The position numbers and the translations under genes are program-made. The notes under the pieces are model-generated. The model was not told where the DNA came from. It did not search any database and saw only the letters and a program-made list of their open reading frames with translations. A stretch of DNA of 64,000 bases from Brevinematales bacterium (GTDB lineage: Bacteria > Spirochaetota > Brevinematia > Brevinematales > Thermospiraceae), in assembly GCA_026417555.1 (NCBI GenBank), contig JAOADA010000005.1:1-64000 (forward strand), read 5' to 3'. Of this stretch, positions 10,097-21,395 are shown in pieces (position 1 is the first letter of the stretch; each line of letters opens with the position of its first letter).

Positions 10097-10198
10097 AGGT
10101 AGTGGACAAGGAAAAAGAGAGTACCGTTTTGTGACCTTTGTCTGTTTGAGAATGTACAAGGAACTCATTTTTTATGTTTTCTTTTTTCATTCTGTGGT

Positions 10199-10227
10199 TT
10201 GACATTCTTCTCGGTTTCTTTTATAAT
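10199..10227 (+). promoter_or_regulatory. Sigma-70 promoter of the cobalamin operon
   Basis: Perfect TTGACA (10199-10204), 17-bp spacer, TATAAT (10222-10227), placing the transcript start near 10234, immediately before the riboswitch. Confidence 0.9.
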
Positions 10228-10233
10228 ACATCC

Positions 10234-10374
10234 AGAAGGGCCAAGGGAAGAACGGTGAAAATCCGTCGCGGTCCCGCCGCTGTAACCGGGGACGAAATCC
10301 CAAAAATGCCACTGGGAAACTGGGAAGGCTGGGAGAGTAGGAAGATCCGGAAGCCAGAAGACCTGCCTCAGGGG
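10234..10374 (+). ncRNA. Cobalamin riboswitch (aptamer)
   Basis: The leader carries the conserved cobalamin-aptamer elements in order: GGTGAAAATCC near 10255, GGTCCCGCCGCTGTAACCGGG near 10270 (quoted in part: CCGCCGCTGTAACCGG), ATGCCACTGGGAAACTGGGAAGGC around 10304-10328 (core GCCACTGGG), and the B12-box-like AGCCAGAAGACCTGCC at 10352-10367. It binds adenosyl- or another cobalamin and represses the downstream import/salvage operon when the cofactor is plentiful. The distance from the promoter puts the whole aptamer in the 5' UTR. Confidence 0.95.
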
Positions 10375-10516
10375 GTACTCTTTTCTCCGGAAGAGGGAGA
10401 GAGTACGTCATTTCTTGAGAAGAGTTGTGGTGAAGGAAACGCGTCTTTTGTGAGGACATGAAGACCTCGAAAAAAGTCTTGAGAAAGAAAATTTTTATAA
10501 ACGAAGGAGAAGGGAT
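10375..10516 (+). promoter_or_regulatory. Riboswitch expression platform and leader of btuF
   Basis: Several competing structures are visible. GTACTCT (10375-10381) pairs with AGAGTAC (10400-10406). GAGG (10452-10455) can pair with CCTC (10465-10468), while AAGAC (10461-10465) can pair with GTCTT (10476-10480). TTTTCTCC (10381-10388) is complementary, with two G-U pairs, to the ribosome-binding stretch GGAGAAGG (10506-10513). No strong terminator T-run is evident, so translational control by masking the ribosome site is the better guess, unproven. Confidence 0.5.
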
Positions 10517-11314
10517 ATGAAACGATGGCTACTTTGGATGGGGATACTATTGGTGGTTTATGGGTATGGTCTTCGGATTGTGACGTTGGGGCCACGGCTC
10601 ACGGAACAGGTTTTTGAACTTGGGCTTGGTCAGGATATTGTAGGTAACACGATCTACTGTACCCGGCCTGCGGCTGCCCAAAAAATCCAGAAAATAGGAA
10701 ATGTGATAGAAATCAATGTGGAAGCAATTGCATCTTTGAAGCCAGACATTATTCTTGGGACAGATCTGAACGATCCCAAGCGTATTCAGAGGCTTAGGCA
10801 GTTGGGTTTTACTGTGGTGGTTTTTGGTCAACCAAAAGATTTTGAAGGGATTTGTGCCGAGTATGTAGAGATTGGGAAACTCCTTGGGAAGGAAAAAGAG
10901 GCAAAAGAGCGTGTTTCTGTTCTGAAAAAAGAGGTAGAAAAGATAGCCTCACAAACGGCCAAAGGGCCTCGGCGAAGGGTATTTTTTCAGATTGGTATCA
11001 ATCCTCTCTGGACACTTCCTGATCAGTCGTTTATGCAGGATTATCTCAGATATGCTGGTGCCATCAATATTGCGACGAATGTGGGATATGGGCAGATAAG
11101 TCTGGAGCAAGTAGTAGCTTCTGATCCCGAGGTGATTTTGATTGCTCTCATGGATAGTGAAGCAAAAGAGGCCATGGCACTATGGAAAAACTACCCTTCG
11201 TTAACGGCGGTGAAGAGAGGGGGGATTCATCTTTTGGATACGACGATGGCAACAAGTCCTACCCCAGCCACGTTTGTGGCTATTCTGAAACAGATTGTTT
11301 CTATGACACGGTAG
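10517..11314 (+). CDS. btuF: Cobalamin ABC transporter, periplasmic binding protein (BtuF-like)
   Basis: 265 residues, class III (BtuF/FhuD-type) solute-binding protein. A hydrophobic N-terminal segment (~4-20) exports it to the periplasm. The first lobe shows RIVTLGPRLTEQVFELGLGQDIVG and the backbone-helix entry IASLKPDIILG; the second lobe ends with TPTPATFVAILKQ-like sequence. It would bind corrinoids and deliver them to the membrane permease encoded next. The assignment to cobalamin rather than siderophore rests on the riboswitch and on the cob genes downstream. The ATG has AAGGAGAAGG just upstream. Confidence 0.88.
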   Translation: MKRWLLWMGILLVVYGYGLRIVTLGPRLTEQVFELGLGQDIVGNTIYCTRPAAAQKIQKIGNVIEINVEAIASLKPDIILGTDLNDPKRIQRLRQLGFTVVVFGQPKDFEGICAEYVEIGKLLGKEKEAKERVSVLKKEVEKIASQTAKGPRRRVFFQIGINPLWTLPDQSFMQDYLRYAGAINIATNVGYGQISLEQVVASDPEVILIALMDSEAKEAMALWKNYPSLTAVKRGGIHLLDTTMATSPTPATFVAILKQIVSMTR

Positions 11315-11315
11315 T

Positions 11316-12329
11316 ATGGAAGGAGGGTGGAAACGACCTTTGCTTCTTGTGATAGGGACACTCTTTTTGACGGTGGTGGCAAGTGTGCTTTCTGTAGGGT
11401 GGGGACCAAGTGGGGTCTCTTTCTCGGAGGTGCTGGCAATTTTCCAGGGAGGGGGAGAGGGGCTTTCTCGTGATATTGTGTTCAAGATTAGACTCCCGAG
11501 GTGGGCGTTGGGAATGGCTGTCGGGGGAGCGCTTGCTTTGGCGGGAGGTATTTTTCAGTCACTTTTTGCCAATCCTTTGGTAGAACCATATACGTTGGGT
11601 ATCTCTGGCGGGGCAACCCTGGGGGTATGTGTGGGCCTTGTGATGGGGAAGCTTTTGGGATGGGAGGGAGGTCTCTTTTGGTGGAGCCTTGGAGGAGGGC
11701 TTGTTTTTATGGGGATCTTGTATGGACTTGGCCGTCGTCGTATATTTTCCGGATCTACCATTTTGCTTTCTGATATGCTTCTCTTTGGGCTTATGCTCTC
11801 GTTTCTTTCCTCTGGGCTTGTGATGCTTTTTCTGGCGCTGGCCCGGGCAGCAGATTTGCATCAGATTGTTTTTTGGACAATGGGTTCTCTTGAACAAGGG
11901 GGAGGGGTCAATCTCTTGGGGGTATGGGGAGTGGTTCTTGTGGGGGGAAGTAGTGCCTGGCTCTTTTCTCGTGAGTTGGATGCGTTTCTTTTGGGAGAGG
12001 AGGAAGCCCTTTTTTTGGGCGTACCTGTCCATGTGATGAAGAAGTTTTTTTTCTTTGTGGCAGTGATGCTTACAGCGGTGAGTATTGCGAGTGCTGGCCT
12101 CATAGGATTTGTTGGGCTTCTGATTCCAAATGTGTACAAGCGGCTTCTTCCTTTTAAACATAGGCTGCTGGTACCCCTGTTTCTTGTGGGTGGAGGGGGA
12201 TTTTTGGTTCTGTGTGATTTTCTTGCGAGAGTGATCATTGCTCCATTGGAACTCCCTGTGGGAGTGATTACGGGTATTCTTGGGGGAATGCTTTTTGTGG
12301 TAATGCTCTTTCAGGAGAAAAGGGCATGA
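11316..12329 (+). CDS. btuC: Cobalamin ABC transporter permease (BtuC-like, FecCD family)
   Basis: 337 residues with about ten membrane helices, as in BtuC. Family motifs are IRLPRWALGMAVGGALALAGGIFQSLFANPLVEPYTLGISGGA (quoted in part: LPRWALGMAVGG, NPLVEPYTLGISGGA) and the ATPase-coupling region SIASAGLIGFVGLLIPNVYK. The usual histidine after the IP of that loop (VPHI) is Asn here. It forms the homodimeric inner-membrane channel. The ATG at 11316 lies one base after the btuF stop, with no clear ribosome site, so translation is probably coupled. Confidence 0.9.
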   Translation: MEGGWKRPLLLVIGTLFLTVVASVLSVGWGPSGVSFSEVLAIFQGGGEGLSRDIVFKIRLPRWALGMAVGGALALAGGIFQSLFANPLVEPYTLGISGGATLGVCVGLVMGKLLGWEGGLFWWSLGGGLVFMGILYGLGRRRIFSGSTILLSDMLLFGLMLSFLSSGLVMLFLALARAADLHQIVFWTMGSLEQGGGVNLLGVWGVVLVGGSSAWLFSRELDAFLLGEEEALFLGVPVHVMKKFFFFVAVMLTAVSIASAGLIGFVGLLIPNVYKRLLPFKHRLLVPLFLVGGGGFLVLCDFLARVIIAPLELPVGVITGILGGMLFVVMLFQEKRA

Positions 12330-13123
12330 ATGTTGTAGAGGTAAAAAATCTTTCAGCAGGATATGGGGAAAGACAGGTTCTTCACGGGGTTTCCTTTGAG
12401 GTAAAGGAAAAGGAGATCATGGGTATTCTGGGTCCCAATGGAAGTGGAAAGTCTACGCTGGTAAGGGCTTTGGTTGGGGCGATTGGCTCTACTGGAGTTA
12501 TCTTTTACAAAGGGGAAGATGTGAGGCATTTTTCTCGTCAGAGACTGGCCAAAACGGTAGCGGTGGTTAGCCAGACACCTTCTCGTCCTCCCATGGATGT
12601 TTTTTCGTATCTTGCCTTGGGCCGTTATCCCTATCATGGGGTGTGGGAGTTTGGACTTTCCTGTGAGGAGAAGGAGATGATTTTTTCTCTTTCTCGTCAA
12701 TTTGGGGTGGAGAGATTTCTTGGACGCAAACTCTCGGAACTCAGTGGTGGGGAGTTTCAGATGGTTCAGATTGTTCGGGCGTTAGTCCAGCAGCCAGAAC
12801 TTCTTCTCATGGATGAACCTACAGCCCATCTTGATATTCATCATCAGGTGAGAATCCTGGATTGGCTTGAGATCCTCAAGGAAAGGATTACGGTGATGAT
12901 TGTTTTTCATGATATCAATCTCGCAGCTCTCTATTGTGATAGAGTCATGATTCTTTCTGAGGGAAGGGTTGAAGGGATAGGGGTTCCTCACGAGGTACTC
13001 ACCTATGAACGGCTCGAGCGGGTTTTTGGGACTCCTGTGGTGGTGTATCCGTCTCCCTTGGAAGGAAGACCCCACGCCTATCTTGTTCCTGCACGGTTTC
13101 TCAGAGGAGACAACCATGGCTAA
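12326..13123 (+). CDS. btuD: Cobalamin ABC transporter ATP-binding protein (BtuD-like)
   Basis: 265 residues. Complete ABC ATPase: Walker A GPNGSGKST (~residue 37), Q-loop VVSQTP, signature LSGGE (~138), Walker B LLLMDEPTAHLD (~158), H-loop VFHDIN (~193). It hydrolyses ATP to drive corrinoid import through BtuC. It overlaps btuC by 4 bases (ATGA) and cobU by 8 bases, so the import and salvage genes are translated as one unit. Confidence 0.92.
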   Translation: MNVVEVKNLSAGYGERQVLHGVSFEVKEKEIMGILGPNGSGKSTLVRALVGAIGSTGVIFYKGEDVRHFSRQRLAKTVAVVSQTPSRPPMDVFSYLALGRYPYHGVWEFGLSCEEKEMIFSLSRQFGVERFLGRKLSELSGGEFQMVQIVRALVQQPELLLMDEPTAHLDIHHQVRILDWLEILKERITVMIVFHDINLAALYCDRVMILSEGRVEGIGVPHEVLTYERLERVFGTPVVVYPSPLEGRPHAYLVPARFLRGDNHG

Positions 13124-13649
13124 GATGATCTTGGTGACAGGAGGAAGGAGATCGGGAAAAAGCTCTTTTGCGGAAAGGTATGCTTTGGAGGCATCAGAGC
13201 ATCCTCTCTATGTGGCTACAGGGGTTGAGTTGGATGAAGAATTCCGGATCCGCATTGAACACCATCGCACGACTCGGGACAAGCGTTTTCTTACCATTGA
13301 GGAACCGTTTCGTGTGAAAGAGGTCATAGAAAAGCAAAGATGTTTTAGTGTGATTGTGTGGGAGTGTGTGACAATGTGGTTGGCAAATCATTTCCATGCA
13401 CGTGGTTGGGTTTTTCCAGAAACGGCAGAAAAGTCCTTAAAAGAGGAATTAGTGGCTATAGTCGAATGTGTCCAGGCGCTTGATCATACGCTTATTGTGG
13501 TTACCAATGAGATAGGACTTGGGGTGATTCCTGCTGATGAGGTTTCACGTCGCTATGGGGATGTTCTCGGTCGATACAATCAGTATCTTGCCTCTGTTTC
13601 GGATGAGGTGTATTTTCTGGTGAGCGGTATTCCCTGGAGGTTGAAGTGA
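13116..13649 (+). CDS. cobU: Adenosylcobinamide kinase / adenosylcobinamide-phosphate guanylyltransferase
   Basis: 177 residues, the normal CobU size. It phosphorylates adenosylcobinamide and then attaches GMP to give AdoCbi-GDP. P-loop TGGRRSGKSSFAERYA (~residues 7-20), the guanylylation-site region with EHHRTTRDKRF, and VVTNEIGLGVIPADEVSRRYGDVLGRYNQ (quoted in part: TNEIGLGVIPADEVSRRYGD) are family signatures. The ATG at 13116 has AGAGGAGA 5 bases upstream. Product passes directly to CobS, whose gene starts inside the cobU stop. Confidence 0.95.
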   Translation: MAKMILVTGGRRSGKSSFAERYALEASEHPLYVATGVELDEEFRIRIEHHRTTRDKRFLTIEEPFRVKEVIEKQRCFSVIVWECVTMWLANHFHARGWVFPETAEKSLKEELVAIVECVQALDHTLIVVTNEIGLGVIPADEVSRRYGDVLGRYNQYLASVSDEVYFLVSGIPWRLK

Positions 13650-14380
13650 GAGGTTTGTTGGCAGCCCTTTCTCTTTTGACGGTTTTTCCTTTGCGAGTGA
13701 GCAAAATGCCACCGGTGGGAAGTGTCGTGGTTTTTTTCCCTCTGGTAGGGGCCTTGTACGGAGGAGTTGTTGTAGGTTGGATAGCGTTGGCACGTCTGGG
13801 AAATATCCCGCAACCACTCGTTGTTATGGGGATGATAGGCATTCCTCTTTTTATGAGTGGGTTTCTTCACTTTGATGGGTGGTGTGATGTCTGGGATGGT
13901 TTCTTTGTCTCAGGGGGAAAAGAGAGACGTCTGGAGGTGATGAAGGATAGTCGGGTAGGGGTATTTGGTCTTGCCATGGGGGTGAGTCTTCTTCTCTTTC
14001 GGTATAGTCTTTATCCCCTTGTTATGCAACAGGAGTTGGGAATAGTATTCTCCTGGGTGCTTTCAAGGACATCAATAGTGGGAGTAGCCTACCGTGCTGT
14101 GTATCCACGGGACAATGGAACAGGGGCTTTTCTTGTGGGGAGGGTTTCTTTTTTGTCATGGCTGGGGGTACATATGCAAGTGGTTGCTCTGGGAATTTTC
14201 CTGTGTTGGTGGGAAGGGAGTGTGAGGCCTTTGCTTGCCTGGGGATGTATGCAGATAGTGGTGATAGCAATGAAAGTTCTTTCTTCTCGAAGGATTGGGG
14301 GTGTGACAGGGGATGTGATGGGAGCTACAGCGGAACTTGTTGAGGTGATGACCCTTTTGGCGTGGGTGGGGGCAAGATGA
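13646..14380 (+). CDS. cobS: Adenosylcobinamide-GDP ribazoletransferase (cobalamin synthase)
   Basis: 244 residues, integral membrane. CobS joins AdoCbi-GDP to alpha-ribazole (phosphate). The family's acidic motif appears as HFDGWCDVWDGFF (~residue 74), with KDSRVGVFGL next and the C-terminal GGVTGDVMGATAEL. Several hydrophobic helices flank these motifs. GTG start at 13646 overlaps the cobU stop (GTGA), and the end overlaps the cbiR-like ATG by 4 bases. Confidence 0.95.
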   Translation: MRGLLAALSLLTVFPLRVSKMPPVGSVVVFFPLVGALYGGVVVGWIALARLGNIPQPLVVMGMIGIPLFMSGFLHFDGWCDVWDGFFVSGGKERRLEVMKDSRVGVFGLAMGVSLLLFRYSLYPLVMQQELGIVFSWVLSRTSIVGVAYRAVYPRDNGTGAFLVGRVSFLSWLGVHMQVVALGIFLCWWEGSVRPLLAWGCMQIVVIAMKVLSSRRIGGVTGDVMGATAELVEVMTLLAWVGAR

Positions 14381-15189
14381 AAACCCTTTCATGGCTTTTT
14401 CCTGGGAGAAGAATAGGGACTACCTCGTATATTTTTCCTTTCGGAGAAACACCTCAGCAGAGCTATGAGAAAAATCTTGAACTTTTAGGTCCCCACGTGG
14501 AATTTGTGCAGCTTCTTTTGTTGGGGAGAGAGTATACGGATATGTGGGATGATGCTCTGTGGGTAGAATCCGTAGTAGCTTTGAAAGAGGCATATAACCT
14601 TGGGATTGTGGTACATCTTCCCCTTGATCTTCACCTCTGGCCAAAACTCGATGAGAAGCATCTCAATGTCCTTGAAAGGCTTCTATGGAATCTTGCTCCC
14701 TTGCAACCATTTGCCTATGTTCTTCATCTTGACACGAGTGATGGAATGGCACAACCTTATTTTCCGTGTTCTCAGGAAAAAAGGTTTTTTCATAGGCTTC
14801 TCAAGAGGCTTGAATATCTGGGGAAGTATCCTCTTGTATTTGAGAACACCCAGTATGATCTCACTTTTTTTAGGGATGAAATTCTTTGCTCGCCTTTTGG
14901 AGTGTGTTTTGACATAGGACACTGGTGGCTTTTAGGGAGGGATGAAAGGGAATTTCTTGAGAGTTTTGGAGAAAGGGTGAAGCTTTTTCATCTTCATGGG
15001 GTAAGGGGAGCAGAGGATCATCTCTCCCTTGCGGTGATGGAGGAAAAGCGGCTTGAAAGGGTTCTTTCCCTTGTAGGAGAAACCCCGACAGTGATTGAGG
15101 TCTTTTCACTTCAGGAGCTTCTTTCGTCTTTGGTGATGTGGAAAAATGTTGAAAAGAGGAGAGAGATATGGAGAAGGTTTTGCCTGTAG
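14377..15189 (+). CDS. cbiR: CbiR-like cobamide-remodelling phosphodiesterase (AP-endonuclease-2/TIM-barrel fold)
   Basis: 270 residues with a xylose-isomerase/AP-endonuclease-like barrel: VEFVQLLLLGRE, GIVVHLPLDLHLW, YVLHLDTSDG, PLVFENTQ, VCFDIGHWWLLGR, VKLFHLHGVRGAEDH and TVIEVFS line up as the metal-binding His/Glu/Asp strands. CbiR, described from Akkermansia, is a member of this superfamily that hydrolyses the nucleotide loop of adenosylated cobamides so that the lower ligand can be exchanged. Position between cobS and cobT in a B12-riboswitch operon makes that role likely. The alternative is an unrelated sugar-phosphate or nucleic-acid hydrolase. The ATG at 14377 overlaps the cobS stop (ATGA). 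Confidence 0.82.
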   Translation: MKTLSWLFPGRRIGTTSYIFPFGETPQQSYEKNLELLGPHVEFVQLLLLGREYTDMWDDALWVESVVALKEAYNLGIVVHLPLDLHLWPKLDEKHLNVLERLLWNLAPLQPFAYVLHLDTSDGMAQPYFPCSQEKRFFHRLLKRLEYLGKYPLVFENTQYDLTFFRDEILCSPFGVCFDIGHWWLLGRDEREFLESFGERVKLFHLHGVRGAEDHLSLAVMEEKRLERVLSLVGETPTVIEVFSLQELLSSLVMWKNVEKRREIWRRFCL

Positions 15190-16199
15190 ATACCCAATGG
15201 TTTGCTTTGGCAAAGAAAGCCATGGACAACAAGACGAAGCCTCTGGGTTCGTTGGGAAAACTTGAAGAGGTGGCTTGCCGTTTGGCGGCCATCCAACGTT
15301 CTTTGAAGCCATCAGGAGAAAAAGTATGCGTCGTGGTGTTTGCGGGGGATCATGGAATAGCAGAAGAAGGGGTTTCTTTGTATCCCCAGGAAGTGACAGC
15401 CCAGATGGTCTATAATTTTCTGGCAGGAGGAGCGGCAATAAATGTGATGGCCCGTCATCTAAAAGCAGAACTTCTTGTGGCAGACATGGGAGTGAAGGGA
15501 AGTTTTTCTCCCCATCCAAACCTCCTCTCTCTCAAGGTGCGAGAGGGAACAAGAAACTGTCTGTTGGAAAATGCTCTCACCCGCTCTGAGGTAGAGGAGG
15601 CTATAGAAAAGGGGAAACGTGTTGCCTTTGAGTATGGCAAGGAGATGGATCTTTGTATTGCCGGAGAAATGGGGATAGGAAATACCAGTGCTGCCTCTCT
15701 TGTGGGAGCCGCCCTTCTTGAGATTCCCCTTGAGGATATGGTGGGGAGAGGGACGGGTGTAGAGGGAGAGAGATTTTCCCACAAAAAAAAGATTCTTGCC
15801 AAAGCTTTTCAATCCCGAACGTGGGAACGAAACGATCCGTTGTCGATTCTTGAGGCTTTTGGTGGCTTGGAGATAGCGGGGATGGCAGGGTTTTATCTTG
15901 GGGTTGCTCTGTTAGGCAAGGCTTTTGTGGTGGATGGCTTTATTGCGACAACTGCCTTTGCGGTAGCCAGGGCACTTGATCCAGGGGTCGAGGAGTATGC
16001 TTTCCTAGGTCACCTCTCTGAGGAACAGGGACATCGCTTGATGGTAGAGAAGCTCAGGATGGATCCCCTTCTTCGTCTTGGCATGAGGTTAGGAGAGGGA
16101 ACGGGGGCACTTCTGGCGGTACCTCTTCTCCGTGTGGCGACTCAACTTCTTGCGGAGATGGCCTCGTTTGAGGAAGCCGGGGTTTCACGAGAAGGGTGA
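15168..16199 (+). CDS. cobT: Nicotinate-nucleotide--dimethylbenzimidazole phosphoribosyltransferase
   Basis: 343 residues, full length. CobT makes alpha-ribazole phosphate from nicotinate mononucleotide and a lower-ligand base, choosing which base is built into the cobamide. Family motifs: KTKPLGSLGKLEE, VFAGDHGIAEEGVSLYP, GEMGIGNTSAAS, GRGTGV and the near-C-terminal catalytic-Glu segment LGMRLGEGTGA. It overlaps the cbiR-like gene by 22 bases. No gene for alpha-ribazole-phosphate phosphatase (cobC) or a corrinoid adenosyltransferase is present in the operon. Confidence 0.96.
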   Translation: MEKVLPVDTQWFALAKKAMDNKTKPLGSLGKLEEVACRLAAIQRSLKPSGEKVCVVVFAGDHGIAEEGVSLYPQEVTAQMVYNFLAGGAAINVMARHLKAELLVADMGVKGSFSPHPNLLSLKVREGTRNCLLENALTRSEVEEAIEKGKRVAFEYGKEMDLCIAGEMGIGNTSAASLVGAALLEIPLEDMVGRGTGVEGERFSHKKKILAKAFQSRTWERNDPLSILEAFGGLEIAGMAGFYLGVALLGKAFVVDGFIATTAFAVARALDPGVEEYAFLGHLSEEQGHRLMVEKLRMDPLLRLGMRLGEGTGALLAVPLLRVATQLLAEMASFEEAGVSREG

Positions 16200-16313: not shown

Positions 16314-19300
16314 ATGCGTATATTAGAACCCCTTGATCGAGACTATGAAATCCTTGCCCCTCTCGCAGAAACCTCCCAATCTCGAGTCTTTCTTGGCAAG
16401 CGACGTCAAGATGGTCAGGACGTCGTTATCAAAACACTTCAGGCAGTAACCACAAAACCCGAAGAGGTTTTCCGTCTTCGGCGGGAATATGGGATGCTCC
16501 GAGAACTCTCTATGGAGGGGGTGATAAAAATCTATGATCTTCGAGAGATGGAGGGAATCCCAGCGTTGGTCTTGGAACGATTTGAGGGGGTAACGCTTCA
16601 GAAATATATGGAAAAGTACCCAAAAGGGCTTCCGTTGAAACTCTTTTTCCCCATTGGGTTGCATGTAGTTTCTACCTTGGCAGAGGTACACAAACGGGGG
16701 ATACTCCATCTTGATCTCAAACCGAGTAATATTCTCATCTCTTCAAAACGGGTGTGTCTCACAGATTTTGGTATATCTCGGATGATGGGAACAGCCACTG
16801 GAAATATCCTTGAAGGGAGTCTTCCCTACATGTCTCCTGAACAGACAGGGAGAACCTCGTTTGCTGTTGACCAGAGAAGTGATCTTTATTCCCTGGGGGT
16901 AGTTTTTTATGAGATGATTTTTGGGTATCGTCCTTTTGAGGCCAAAGATCTTGCAGGGTGGGTGCATGCCCATCTTGCTGAAAAACCAAAACAAAACGAA
17001 GAACTTGCTGGGCGTTATTCAGGTCTTGTTGCCATTATCATGAAATTATTAGAAAAAGATCCTGGGAAACGCTATCAGAGCAGCTATGGGCTCCTCTACG
17101 ATCTTCATAAGGCCTATCAGTATTATCAAAAAGCGGAGAAAATTCCGGAGTTTGTTCTTGGGGAGAGGGATTTTCCTCAGAAACTCCAATTTTCTCGAAA
17201 ACTATATGGTCGAGAAAAAGAAAAGGAGGTGCTGGAAGAGGGATTAAGACGAAGTGTGTTAGGAAGTTTGCAGCATCTTGTTTTGGTAGGGGAAAAGGGG
17301 ATAGGAAAAACCCTTCTTCTTGACACCGTGTGGACAGCCTCTCAAGAGAGGGAGATGTGGAGGGTAAGGGTGACTTTTTCTCAGGATCGACAATCGACGC
17401 CGTATCATGGACTGAGGCAATTTCTCTATGATATTGTCCAGCAGATGTATACCCTTCCTGTGAGTGAACAAAAGGTTTTGCAAGAGGGGTGGGAACGCAT
17501 AGCTGATCAAGGAAAAGTTCTGAGTGCCCTCTTTCCAGAGATGGAGAAGGTGTTTCCCTCGCGAGGAGAGGTAGAGGTGCTTGATCCTGAAGCTGCTCAG
17601 AAGAGACTCTTTTATGTCTTTGTTGAGTTTCTTCGCGTGTTAGTTTCGAGAAAGCGGCCTTTATGGCTGGTGCTTGACCATATCCAGTGGGCTGATGGAG
17701 AGAGCAGAAGTCTTTTTCTCTATCTTGTGCGACAAAGTCTTGCCTATGTATATGTGGTAACGGTTTTCCAGGGAAAGAGAAACGAATGGGAGGAATGGGC
17801 TCGATGGTATGAGGGAACATCGTATCGCCTTGTGGAGATGGAGGGATGGACACGTGAGGATCTCAAATCGTGTCTTTCAGATCTTTTTGCTGAGAAGACA
17901 GAGCGGCTTGAGGGATTGGCGGGGATACTTTTTGACAAGACACACGGCAATCCTCTCCAGTGTGTATTTCTCTTGCAAGAACTAGAAAAAGAAGGACTCC
18001 TTTTCTTGGATGGGTATCGAGGCTGGAAATGGAAAGAAGAGGCTATAGCCGCCTACCATCCTGTCCCCACCGAAAAAACCATTCATGAGATGCTTGGAGA
18101 ACTTGATGAGGATAGTCGTCGGATTTTGGGGCTTGCTAGCTGTATTGGGAATCGGTTTACTCTTCAGATGATTCAAGAGGTGGTAGGAACCTCAGAAGAG
18201 GAGATCCTGGCCCTTCTTGTGCCTCTTATGGAAAAGAGGTTGGTGAATATTCAGTCGGGAATGGTTGTTTGGAGTCATAATATTCTTCGCGAGGCGGTGT
18301 ATGCGGCTCTTGAAGAAAAGGAGAGAACCTCTGCCCATTATTTGGTAGGGATGTATTTTCTTCAGCAAGGGATGGAAGCGTATGAAGACAAAGTTTATTT
18401 TGTCTTAGATCATGTTCTGAAAGGTCTTGCATGTATTGATCCACATGAAGAGGGGGAGATGGTCTTGTCTCTTGTCATGAAAGTGGCGGAACAGAATAAG
18501 CAGTCAGGGGCTTTTTCAGCCTCGTATGAGAGTTTGTCTCAGGTGAGGTTTTTGGTGTCTCAGACAGGAGAGGGGGAGTGGTTTTTGCGTTTTTATGAGG
18601 CCTATGCGGAGTCGGCTTATTATACAGCACATTACAATGAACTGGAAGAGGTGTTGGAGGTTTTGAAAAAAGCTGGCTATGACGAAATGGTGTGCTTTGA
18701 TCTCTGGATCCTCTTTATGAAAGCCTTGGGAAGTCAGGAGAAATATGAGAGGGCTACAGAGGTTTTCTTTCATTTAGCGTCTCTTCTCTCTCTGCCTGTG
18801 CCTCGACGGATAAGTATTGGGCGAGTGTTGCCTCTATTGGGAGAGGTCCTCTGGAAACTGCGTGCACTTTCTGACAAAAAACTTCAGGAAATGCCGGTTA
18901 ATCAGGATCCCCTCGCGGGTAAACAAGCAAAACTTCTATTTTCTTTTGCCCCACTAGCGTTTTTTACCTCGCCTTTTTTAAATGTTTTTATGAACCTCTT
19001 TGGGGTGAAACTCTCTTTGAGGAAGGGGCTTTTTCCTGAGACACCTTTCTTTTTGATAGCAAGTGGTGCTATCCTCTCAGGACTTGGCCAGAAAAGATTA
19101 GGGAACCAGGTGGCGGATAAGGGAATTTATTTAATGGAAAAAATGGAGTATACTACCAATGCCGCTGGAAATTATTTTGTGTATTATTCTTTTCTTTTTT
19201 CTTGGGTTCATTCCCAGCATGAGATGCCAGAGCGGTTGACCCGTGTGTATGAGAGAGCAGTTGTTCAGGGAGATGTAGAGTATGCTGCTTATGCCCTCAT

Positions 19301-21395
19301 GGTTATGAGTCTTCAACAGTGGCAGGTTGGTTCTTCTCTGGCAGTGGGATGGGAATATATCCGGAACAATGTTCAAACCATCCAGGGGCTTGGTCAGAGA
19401 TCTCAAGAAATTGTGACAAGACTCTGTCTTCAGATGGTAGAGAATGTAGTGAAACCCTCTGAAGATCCTTCACAACTTGAGGGGGAGTGGTACAGAGAAA
19501 GTGAAATGCGTGCTCTGCATGAGAGAGAAAAAGACTATTTTGCTTTGAGGTATTTGTTGCTTTACAAGTTAATTATAGCGTATGTTTTTGAGAAATATGA
19601 AACAGCCTATTTTCTGGGAAAGTCTATAGTCCCTTTTGAGGCAACCACCAAATCAACAGCCGCTTATGTCCTTTATCTTTTGTTTATGGGACTCATTGGG
19701 AGTAAACTTGCCATTGTCTCAGCAGGGAAACATAGACAAGAGTTTATAAAGTGGTTACAGAGAGCGGAAAAAATGTATGGAAAATGGGTAAAATTGTCAT
19801 CAGAAAACTATGCCCCAGGGTACTATCTCCTGCGTGCAGAAAAATTCAGGGTTTTGCGAAGACCCTGGGAAGCTCTCCATTGGTATGGGAAGGCAATAGA
19901 AGCAGCGCATCAGAATGGATATCGGTTGTATGAGGCTATCGCTTTTGAGCGAAGGGCGGACTATTGGGAATCTCAGGGGGAACATGATCTTGCGGAACAG
20001 GATAGAAGACAGGCTTTTCGTGTCTATAAGCGCTGGGGGGCGGAGGCCAAAACTCACCATATGGTGAAACAGTATCCCATGCTGGGAGCGAAAGTGTCTC
20101 CCCATGACGAAACCACGACGCACCATACTCTGACGGCCACAGGGACACAAACGGTAGACCTGGTTACCATGGTGAAAGCGAGTGAGGCCCTGATGGGAGA
20201 AACAGATGTGAATGCCCTCTTGAGGCAGATCCTTACCATGGTAGTAGAGAATGCAGGGGCTGAGAAGGGGGTGTTTCTTTATGAAAAGGATGAGTGTCTC
20301 ATGGTCAGGGCAATCAAAAATCCTAGCTGTGAGGCTGAGGTGGTTTCTCTTCCCTTTGAGGAATATACTGATATGCCTCAACGGGTGATCCAGTATGCTT
20401 TGCAGAAGGATGAGGAACTGGTGGTGGAAGATGCCCAAGAAGAGTCTCTCTTTGTCTCTGATCCCTACATCATGAATCAGATGGTACGTTCTCTTTTAGT
20501 GATACCTGTCTATCGTGTGGGGCGTCGTGTAGGACTTGTCTATCTTGAGAACAACATGGGGCGGGGAATGTTTACCAGGGAAAGGATTGGTACCCTTCGG
20601 ATTCTTCTTGCCCAGGCCTCAATAGCCCTCCAGAATGTGGATCTCTTGAACCGTGTTAAGGATGCCACCCGCTTAGAAACTGAGATGCACCTTGCCAAGG
20701 ATATGCAGATAGGGCTTTTGCCCAAGAAGCCATATCTTCCTGGCTATGAGGTGGTAGGATTTATGAAAACGGCTGATGAGGTAGGGGGGGATTATTATGA
20801 TGTGATAGGAGAGACTTCTCCCGGGTGGGTGATGATAGGAGATGTCTCTGGGCATGGGTTTTCCTCGGGACAGGTGATGGCCATGACACAGACGGCCTTG
20901 CAGGTTCTTGTGAGAGAAAATCCCCTTCGCCTTCCCACAGAACTTCTCCAGTTTGCCAATCGTGCCATTACCTACAATATAGGCAATATTTTTTATGAAG
21001 ATTTTAAATATGTCACTATTACCGTTTTGCAGGTATGGGAAGATGGGCGGATTTTGTATGCGGGGCAACATCAGGATATCTGGGTGTTTCGGCAAGCGAC
21101 GGGAGAGGTGGAGGTTTTTTCTACGGATGGACTGTGGTTGGGGATAGATAATCTGTTGGGGAGAGAAGAGACAAACAAGCAATGTTTTCTCGAAAAAGGA
21201 GATGTGATGCTTCTCTACACAGATGGTTTGACTGAGGCACGCCAGAATGGGGAATTGGTAGGAGAAAAGGCCAAGGATATTTTCCAGCAATGGGGAAGAG
21301 AGACCTTAGAAACCATCCAGAGGGAACTGGTGGGTTTTATTAACCAGTGTGAGGTACGGGACGATGTCACGTTTGTTCTCATACGAAAGCAATGA
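16314..21395 (+). CDS. Giant Ser/Thr kinase - AAA ATPase - GAF - PP2C/SpoIIE phosphatase signalling protein
   Basis: 1693 residues. Eukaryotic-type kinase (~10-270): VVIKTL lysine, catalytic loop LHLDLKPSN (Leu replaces the usual Arg of HRD), DFGIS, SPEQTG, DQRSDLYSLGVV. Next an AAA-type ATPase (~300-550) with P-loop GEKGIGKT (~326-333) and Walker-B-like WLVLDHIQWADG (~450). A long helical TPR-like region follows (~600-1260). Then a GAF sensor (~1290-1430) and a C-terminal PP2C/SpoIIE domain (~1465-1690) with metal-binding acids in GGDYYD, GDVSGHG, YTDGLTEAR and RDDVTFVL. The protein therefore joins a kinase and a phosphatase. Targets are unknown; it is monocistronic. Comparable multidomain kinases are common in spirochaetes and cyanobacteria. 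Confidence 0.92.
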   Translation: MRILEPLDRDYEILAPLAETSQSRVFLGKRRQDGQDVVIKTLQAVTTKPEEVFRLRREYGMLRELSMEGVIKIYDLREMEGIPALVLERFEGVTLQKYMEKYPKGLPLKLFFPIGLHVVSTLAEVHKRGILHLDLKPSNILISSKRVCLTDFGISRMMGTATGNILEGSLPYMSPEQTGRTSFAVDQRSDLYSLGVVFYEMIFGYRPFEAKDLAGWVHAHLAEKPKQNEELAGRYSGLVAIIMKLLEKDPGKRYQSSYGLLYDLHKAYQYYQKAEKIPEFVLGERDFPQKLQFSRKLYGREKEKEVLEEGLRRSVLGSLQHLVLVGEKGIGKTLLLDTVWTASQEREMWRVRVTFSQDRQSTPYHGLRQFLYDIVQQMYTLPVSEQKVLQEGWERIADQGKVLSALFPEMEKVFPSRGEVEVLDPEAAQKRLFYVFVEFLRVLVSRKRPLWLVLDHIQWADGESRSLFLYLVRQSLAYVYVVTVFQGKRNEWEEWARWYEGTSYRLVEMEGWTREDLKSCLSDLFAEKTERLEGLAGILFDKTHGNPLQCVFLLQELEKEGLLFLDGYRGWKWKEEAIAAYHPVPTEKTIHEMLGELDEDSRRILGLASCIGNRFTLQMIQEVVGTSEEEILALLVPLMEKRLVNIQSGMVVWSHNILREAVYAALEEKERTSAHYLVGMYFLQQGMEAYEDKVYFVLDHVLKGLACIDPHEEGEMVLSLVMKVAEQNKQSGAFSASYESLSQVRFLVSQTGEGEWFLRFYEAYAESAYYTAHYNELEEVLEVLKKAGYDEMVCFDLWILFMKALGSQEKYERATEVFFHLASLLSLPVPRRISIGRVLPLLGEVLWKLRALSDKKLQEMPVNQDPLAGKQAKLLFSFAPLAFFTSPFLNVFMNLFGVKLSLRKGLFPETPFFLIASGAILSGLGQKRLGNQVADKGIYLMEKMEYTTNAAGNYFVYYSFLFSWVHSQHEMPERLTRVYERAVVQGDVEYAAYALMVMSLQQWQVGSSLAVGWEYIRNNVQTIQGLGQRSQEIVTRLCLQMVENVVKPSEDPSQLEGEWYRESEMRALHEREKDYFALRYLLLYKLIIAYVFEKYETAYFLGKSIVPFEATTKSTAAYVLYLLFMGLIGSKLAIVSAGKHRQEFIKWLQRAEKMYGKWVKLSSENYAPGYYLLRAEKFRVLRRPWEALHWYGKAIEAAHQNGYRLYEAIAFERRADYWESQGEHDLAEQDRRQAFRVYKRWGAEAKTHHMVKQYPMLGAKVSPHDETTTHHTLTATGTQTVDLVTMVKASEALMGETDVNALLRQILTMVVENAGAEKGVFLYEKDECLMVRAIKNPSCEAEVVSLPFEEYTDMPQRVIQYALQKDEELVVEDAQEESLFVSDPYIMNQMVRSLLVIPVYRVGRRVGLVYLENNMGRGMFTRERIGTLRILLAQASIALQNVDLLNRVKDATRLETEMHLAKDMQIGLLPKKPYLPGYEVVGFMKTADEVGGDYYDVIGETSPGWVMIGDVSGHGFSSGQVMAMTQTALQVLVRENPLRLPTELLQFANRAITYNIGNIFYEDFKYVTITVLQVWEDGRILYAGQHQDIWVFRQATGEVEVFSTDGLWLGIDNLLGREETNKQCFLEKGDVMLLYTDGLTEARQNGELVGEKAKDIFQQWGRETLETIQRELVGFINQCEVRDDVTFVLIRKQ

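Follow-up and report, generated by a model that had tools for sequence, protein, structure and literature searches.

A riboswitch-led operon with a probable role in cobamide import and remodeling in a genus of Brevinematales

Does the organism that carries this locus take up complete foreign cobamides and exchange their lower ligand, or does it mainly finish incomplete corrinoids? The question arises from seven genes in the window (the whole stretch of 64,000 nucleotides that was analyzed), where genes for uptake, a likely nucleotide-loop hydrolase, and genes for loop rebuilding follow a cobalamin riboswitch. A first-pass annotation had proposed import of foreign cobamides followed by a lower-ligand swap. 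We consider it very probable that this is a corrinoid-controlled operon for the import and remodeling of cobamides.

Operon structure and the riboswitch leader

The seven genes are tightly packed on the forward strand in the order btuF-btuC-btuD-cobU-cobS-cbiR-cobT, with the riboswitch upstream (Table 1). Gene families were called by Pfam and NCBIfam scans and the riboswitch by Rfam, and the resulting map bears out the set of btuFCD with cobU, cobS, and cobT that had been read from the sequence. Neighboring genes overlap by 4 nt at btuC/btuD, cobU/cobS, and cobS/cbiR, by 8 nt at btuD/cobU, and by 22 nt at cbiR/cobT, so that the claimed overlap of the cbiR candidate with both cobS and cobT is correct. 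Also as annotated, no cobC, cbiZ, or adenosyltransferase gene lies within the operon (10234-16199). The gene order recurs unchanged in the two further genomes of the genus examined (Brevinematales, Spirochaetota), and the arrangement is thus not a matter of chance.

Table 1. Features of the operon and its leader (window coordinates)
Feature	Coordinates	Strand	Basis
Cobalamin riboswitch aptamer, RF00174 match	10195..10384	+	103.3 bits, E about 1e-24
Promoter TTGACA-17-TATAAT, 12/12 consensus	10199..10227	+	kept in both congeners
Hairpin immediately 3' of aptamer, tip CTCCGGAAGAGG	10375..10406	+	three-genome comparison
btuF, corrinoid-binding protein of ABC importer	10517..11314	+	Peripla_BP_2
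btuC, permease	11316..12329	+	FecCD
btuD, ATPase	12326..13123	+	ABC ATPase profile
cobU, cobinamide kinase / cobinamide-phosphate guanylyltransferase	13116..13649	+	PRK05800, 170 bits, cutoff 161
cobS, cobamide synthase	13646..14380	+	Pfam CobS 147 bits
cbiR, predicted cobamide-hydrolyzing phosphodiesterase (AP endonuclease 2 superfamily)	14377..15189	+	NF041277
cobT, nicotinate-nucleotide:base phosphoribosyltransferase	15168..16199	+	TIGR03160, 421 bits, cutoff 319

The importer is of the same three-part type as E. coli BtuFCD, and the top solved-structure relatives of BtuF are vitamin B12-binding proteins. Because the subunits fall under the NCBI cutoffs for enterobacterial Btu proteins, their substrate is judged from the riboswitch and the neighboring genes. 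CobU retains the P-loop and HH motif and can be aligned over its full length with the Salmonella-type enzyme of known structure; CobS scores 107 bits on TIGR00317, slightly below the cutoff of 110; and CobT retains its C-terminal GEGTGA motif. The next gene downstream (16314-21395) encodes a 1693-aa signaling protein with Ser/Thr kinase, AAA ATPase, GAF, and SpoIIE phosphatase domains, as far as seen unrelated to cobamides.

Riboswitch control, as originally claimed, is supported by the RF00174 match that precedes btuF (the Rfam gathering score is 31.5), and the aptamer core is near-identical across the three genomes of the genus. The promoters of the two congeners match the consensus at 12/12 and 11/12 positions, with unchanged spacing to the aptamer core, and each of the three promoters overlaps the 5' portion of the Rfam match (here 10195-10240). 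Given this position, transcription of the btuF operon probably begins around 10234, just a few bases ahead of the aptamer core, in which case the 5' strand of the P1 closing helix, as drawn by Rfam, would not be transcribed. In the Rfam alignment, this helix pairs poorly and overlaps the promoter. Unlike the aptamer of the btuF operon, the riboswitch upstream of metE in this genome looks as if it retains P1. The tip of the hairpin that follows the aptamer is identical between species and its stem letters vary. Folding of the stretch from the aptamer to btuF gave no convincing structure (z -0.8).

Identity of the protein encoded between cobS and cobT

The CbiR-like enzyme that had been noted at 14377-15189 can be assigned to CbiR: curated profile, active-site columns, phylogeny, predicted fold, and gene neighbors all agree on this. 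On the curated CbiR equivalog (NF041277), the protein scores 158 bits, 53 bits above the cutoff of 105. Its score on the general Pfam family AP_endonuc_2 is slightly below cutoff, and the nfo model is absent among its profile matches. Ten His/Asp/Glu columns, defined as invariant across 17 Spirochaetota CbiRs, are all kept (H80, H117, E156, D179, H182, H205, H207, D214, H215, and E241). The AlphaFold2 model, which is of high confidence (mean pLDDT 91.8), has a TIM-barrel fold.

The rival reading is that this is a DNA-repair endonuclease or sugar isomerase lying by chance among cob genes. It draws on a shared superfamily and fold: endonuclease IV (Nfo) and the AP endonuclease 2 sugar epimerases have the same TIM barrel and metal-ligand pattern as CbiR, among solved structures epimerases, MJ1311, and endonuclease IV come closest, and the modeled fold is about as near to epimerases as to endonuclease IV. 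(A PDB sequence search gave weak matches, none named CbiR; thus, no solved CbiR structure was found.) However, these relatives differ from CbiR in clade, in conserved columns, and in gene context. In a tree of 52 superfamily proteins built by maximum likelihood (Spirochaetota only, with the Akkermansia CbiR not included and the root arbitrary), a branch with support of 98/97 places the 14377-15189 protein and 17 other CbiRs on one side. The host's separate endonuclease-IV-like protein reaches no more than 21 bits with the CbiR model and falls outside that branch, so the grouping with a DNA-repair clade that had been named as grounds for rejection did not occur. With the curated cutoff exceeded and the placement among cob genes conserved, we regard the repair or isomerase reading as extremely unlikely.

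Also on the CbiR side of the tree is a protein (L018) that scores slightly under the cutoff. A separate, well-supported Spirochaetota clade (L020-L022, L024, L025, L027-L029, L124, and L125) reaches 60-73 bits against the CbiR model, short of the cutoff, and stands apart from CbiR.

Across a 198-genome sample of the phylum, CbiR scored above the cutoff in 17 genomes; the three genomes of the genus are the only ones among them from the sampled order, and one of the three (G014) has a CbiR 61% identical to the protein described here. In several other families, cbiR adjoins cobU, cobS, or cobT, which matches the published pattern (PMC7733943). A further, diverged CbiR above the cutoff (L049:9477-10373, 129 bits) accompanies the cob-linked copy in one genome (G130).

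Cobamide supply and use in the genome

Corrin-ring synthesis is not recognizable in the host genome (2.04 Mb, 98% complete), judged by three profiles searched genome-wide. No CbiG was found, and the sole TP_methylase match is the rRNA methylase RsmI. The GATase_3 matches were considered as CbiA/CbiP and rejected, as they are short amidotransferases that match other GATase families better. The annotated lack of ring-synthesis genes therefore extends beyond the operon for these three profiles, and the full de novo pathway that could have overturned the proposal did not appear.

The genome encodes several consumers of cobamides. MetH is present (800 aa; L081:5823-8225), without its C-terminal activation domain, so that reactivation would need a separate protein. 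The class II ribonucleotide reductase NrdJ scores 632 bits on TIGR02504 (cutoff 400), its closest solved relatives being the B12-dependent enzymes 1xjk and 1xje. Two further proteins with radical-SAM and B12-binding matches are probable B12-radical-SAM users. The genome also encodes cobamide-independent backups, namely MetE and the class III reductase NrdD; hence, the cell appears to use cobamides when they can be obtained, and would presumably grow without them. The second cobalamin riboswitch of the genome had been expected upstream of btuB and instead precedes metE (L080:3396-5950; contig C11, about 181400-183950); metE also lies behind a cobalamin riboswitch in both congeners, judged by position.

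Remodeling and the adenosyl ligand

The proposed CbiR step has a direct precedent. Purified CbiR of Akkermansia muciniphila cuts intact cobamides, as had been stated in the first reading, and results in remodeling in E. coli (Mok et al. 2020; PMC7733943). The Akkermansia enzyme hydrolyzes adenosyl and methyl forms with many lower ligands, and also the cell's own final cobamide, which raises the question of a futile cycle (PMC7733943). CbiR, its reaction, and the location of cbiR beside cobamide and transport genes are thus already published: homologs are reported from 22 phyla, with cobamide genes as neighbors of 80% of the homologs and transport genes as neighbors of 25% (Mok et al. 2020; PMC7733943). 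The Akkermansia locus, in which CbiR is Amuc_1679, resembles the present one in its CbiR family, in having cbiR among cobT, cobS, and cobU, in transport genes nearby, and in the lack of de novo synthesis in that organism. It differs in that here btuFCD, cobU, cobS, cbiR, and cobT form one riboswitch-led operon, and in that the Akkermansia locus also contains cobDQ and cbiB (PMC7733943), both absent from this operon. The CbiZ pathway of Rhodobacter sphaeroides likewise strips the nucleotide loop of imported cobamides for rebuilding, but CbiZ is an unrelated protein that cuts an amide bond, whereas CbiR leaves cobinamide-phosphate, and no linker rebuilding is needed.

We infer every reaction for this organism, remodeling included, with the purified Akkermansia enzyme as the model for the CbiR step. 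Low intracellular cobamide would presumably permit expression of the operon through the riboswitch, and BtuFCD would then import complete cobamides made by neighbors, and perhaps cobinamide. CbiR, as a metal-dependent TIM-barrel hydrolase, would cut the phosphoribosyl bond of the nucleotide loop to give cobinamide-phosphate and an alpha-riboside. CobU would guanylylate the cobinamide-phosphate (its kinase step being dispensable on the CbiR route), CobT would convert the base that the cell presumably prefers into the alpha-ribotide, and CobS would couple the two. The rebuilt cobamide could supply MetH, NrdJ, and the two probable B12-radical-SAM proteins and control metE via the second riboswitch.

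Alternatively, the operon may serve mainly for salvage of cobinamide and other incomplete corrinoids via CobU, CobS, and CobT, with CbiR recycling damaged or surplus cobamides and the lower ligand left unexchanged. Those three enzymes alone are indeed a standard set for cobinamide salvage. However, cbiR is cotranscribed and overlaps both cobS and cobT, the importer-led operon is conserved in the genus, and the purified Akkermansia enzyme acts on intact cobamides as described above, all of which makes this alternative unlikely. Import with remodeling remains our preferred reading: the proposal of the first-pass annotation is supported by the gene set, the CbiR assignment, and the Akkermansia reaction, with the ligand exchange itself as the part that would follow from them.

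The one odd point here is that no recognizable adenosyltransferase accompanies NrdJ, which requires adenosylcobamide. The cobA/pduO and cobC genes, suggested at the outset as targets for a wider search, were not found. For the PduO/EutT type, PF01923 was negative in the three genomes of the genus and TIGR00636, searched up to E 10, gave nothing credible in them (hits of 10 bits were dismissed, as they are located in ORFs >1000 aa). For the BtuR/CobO type, PF02572 was negative in the same three genomes, among them one that consists of a single contig of 2.5 Mb (G026). In control genomes, PF01923 found matches in 9/14 and PF02572 in 7/14. No CobC was recognized by profile search of the host genome, and a general phosphatase could replace it. 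His_Phos hits were considered as cobC and rejected, since phosphoglycerate mutase and SixA fit them better.

The adenosyl ligand would either be imported with the cobamide and kept through remodeling or be added by an unrecognized enzyme; an adenosyltransferase that diverged beyond the reach of the profiles is possible. Tentatively, with the balance of probability somewhat against it, we suggest that the genus maintains its adenosylcobamide supply without any known corrinoid adenosyltransferase. CbiR, CobU, and CobS might exchange the lower ligand and leave the adenosyl upper ligand of the imported cobamide untouched for NrdJ, or a member of an unrecognized adenosyltransferase family might supply that upper ligand. 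If the known adenosyltransferases are truly absent despite NrdJ, this lineage would be a suitable place to search for a new one, and also to look for direct use of adenosylated cobamides. More generally, sensor, importer, hydrolase, and rebuilding enzymes form a complete set within one conserved spirochete operon, a compact system in which the action of CbiR on incoming cobamides could be tested.
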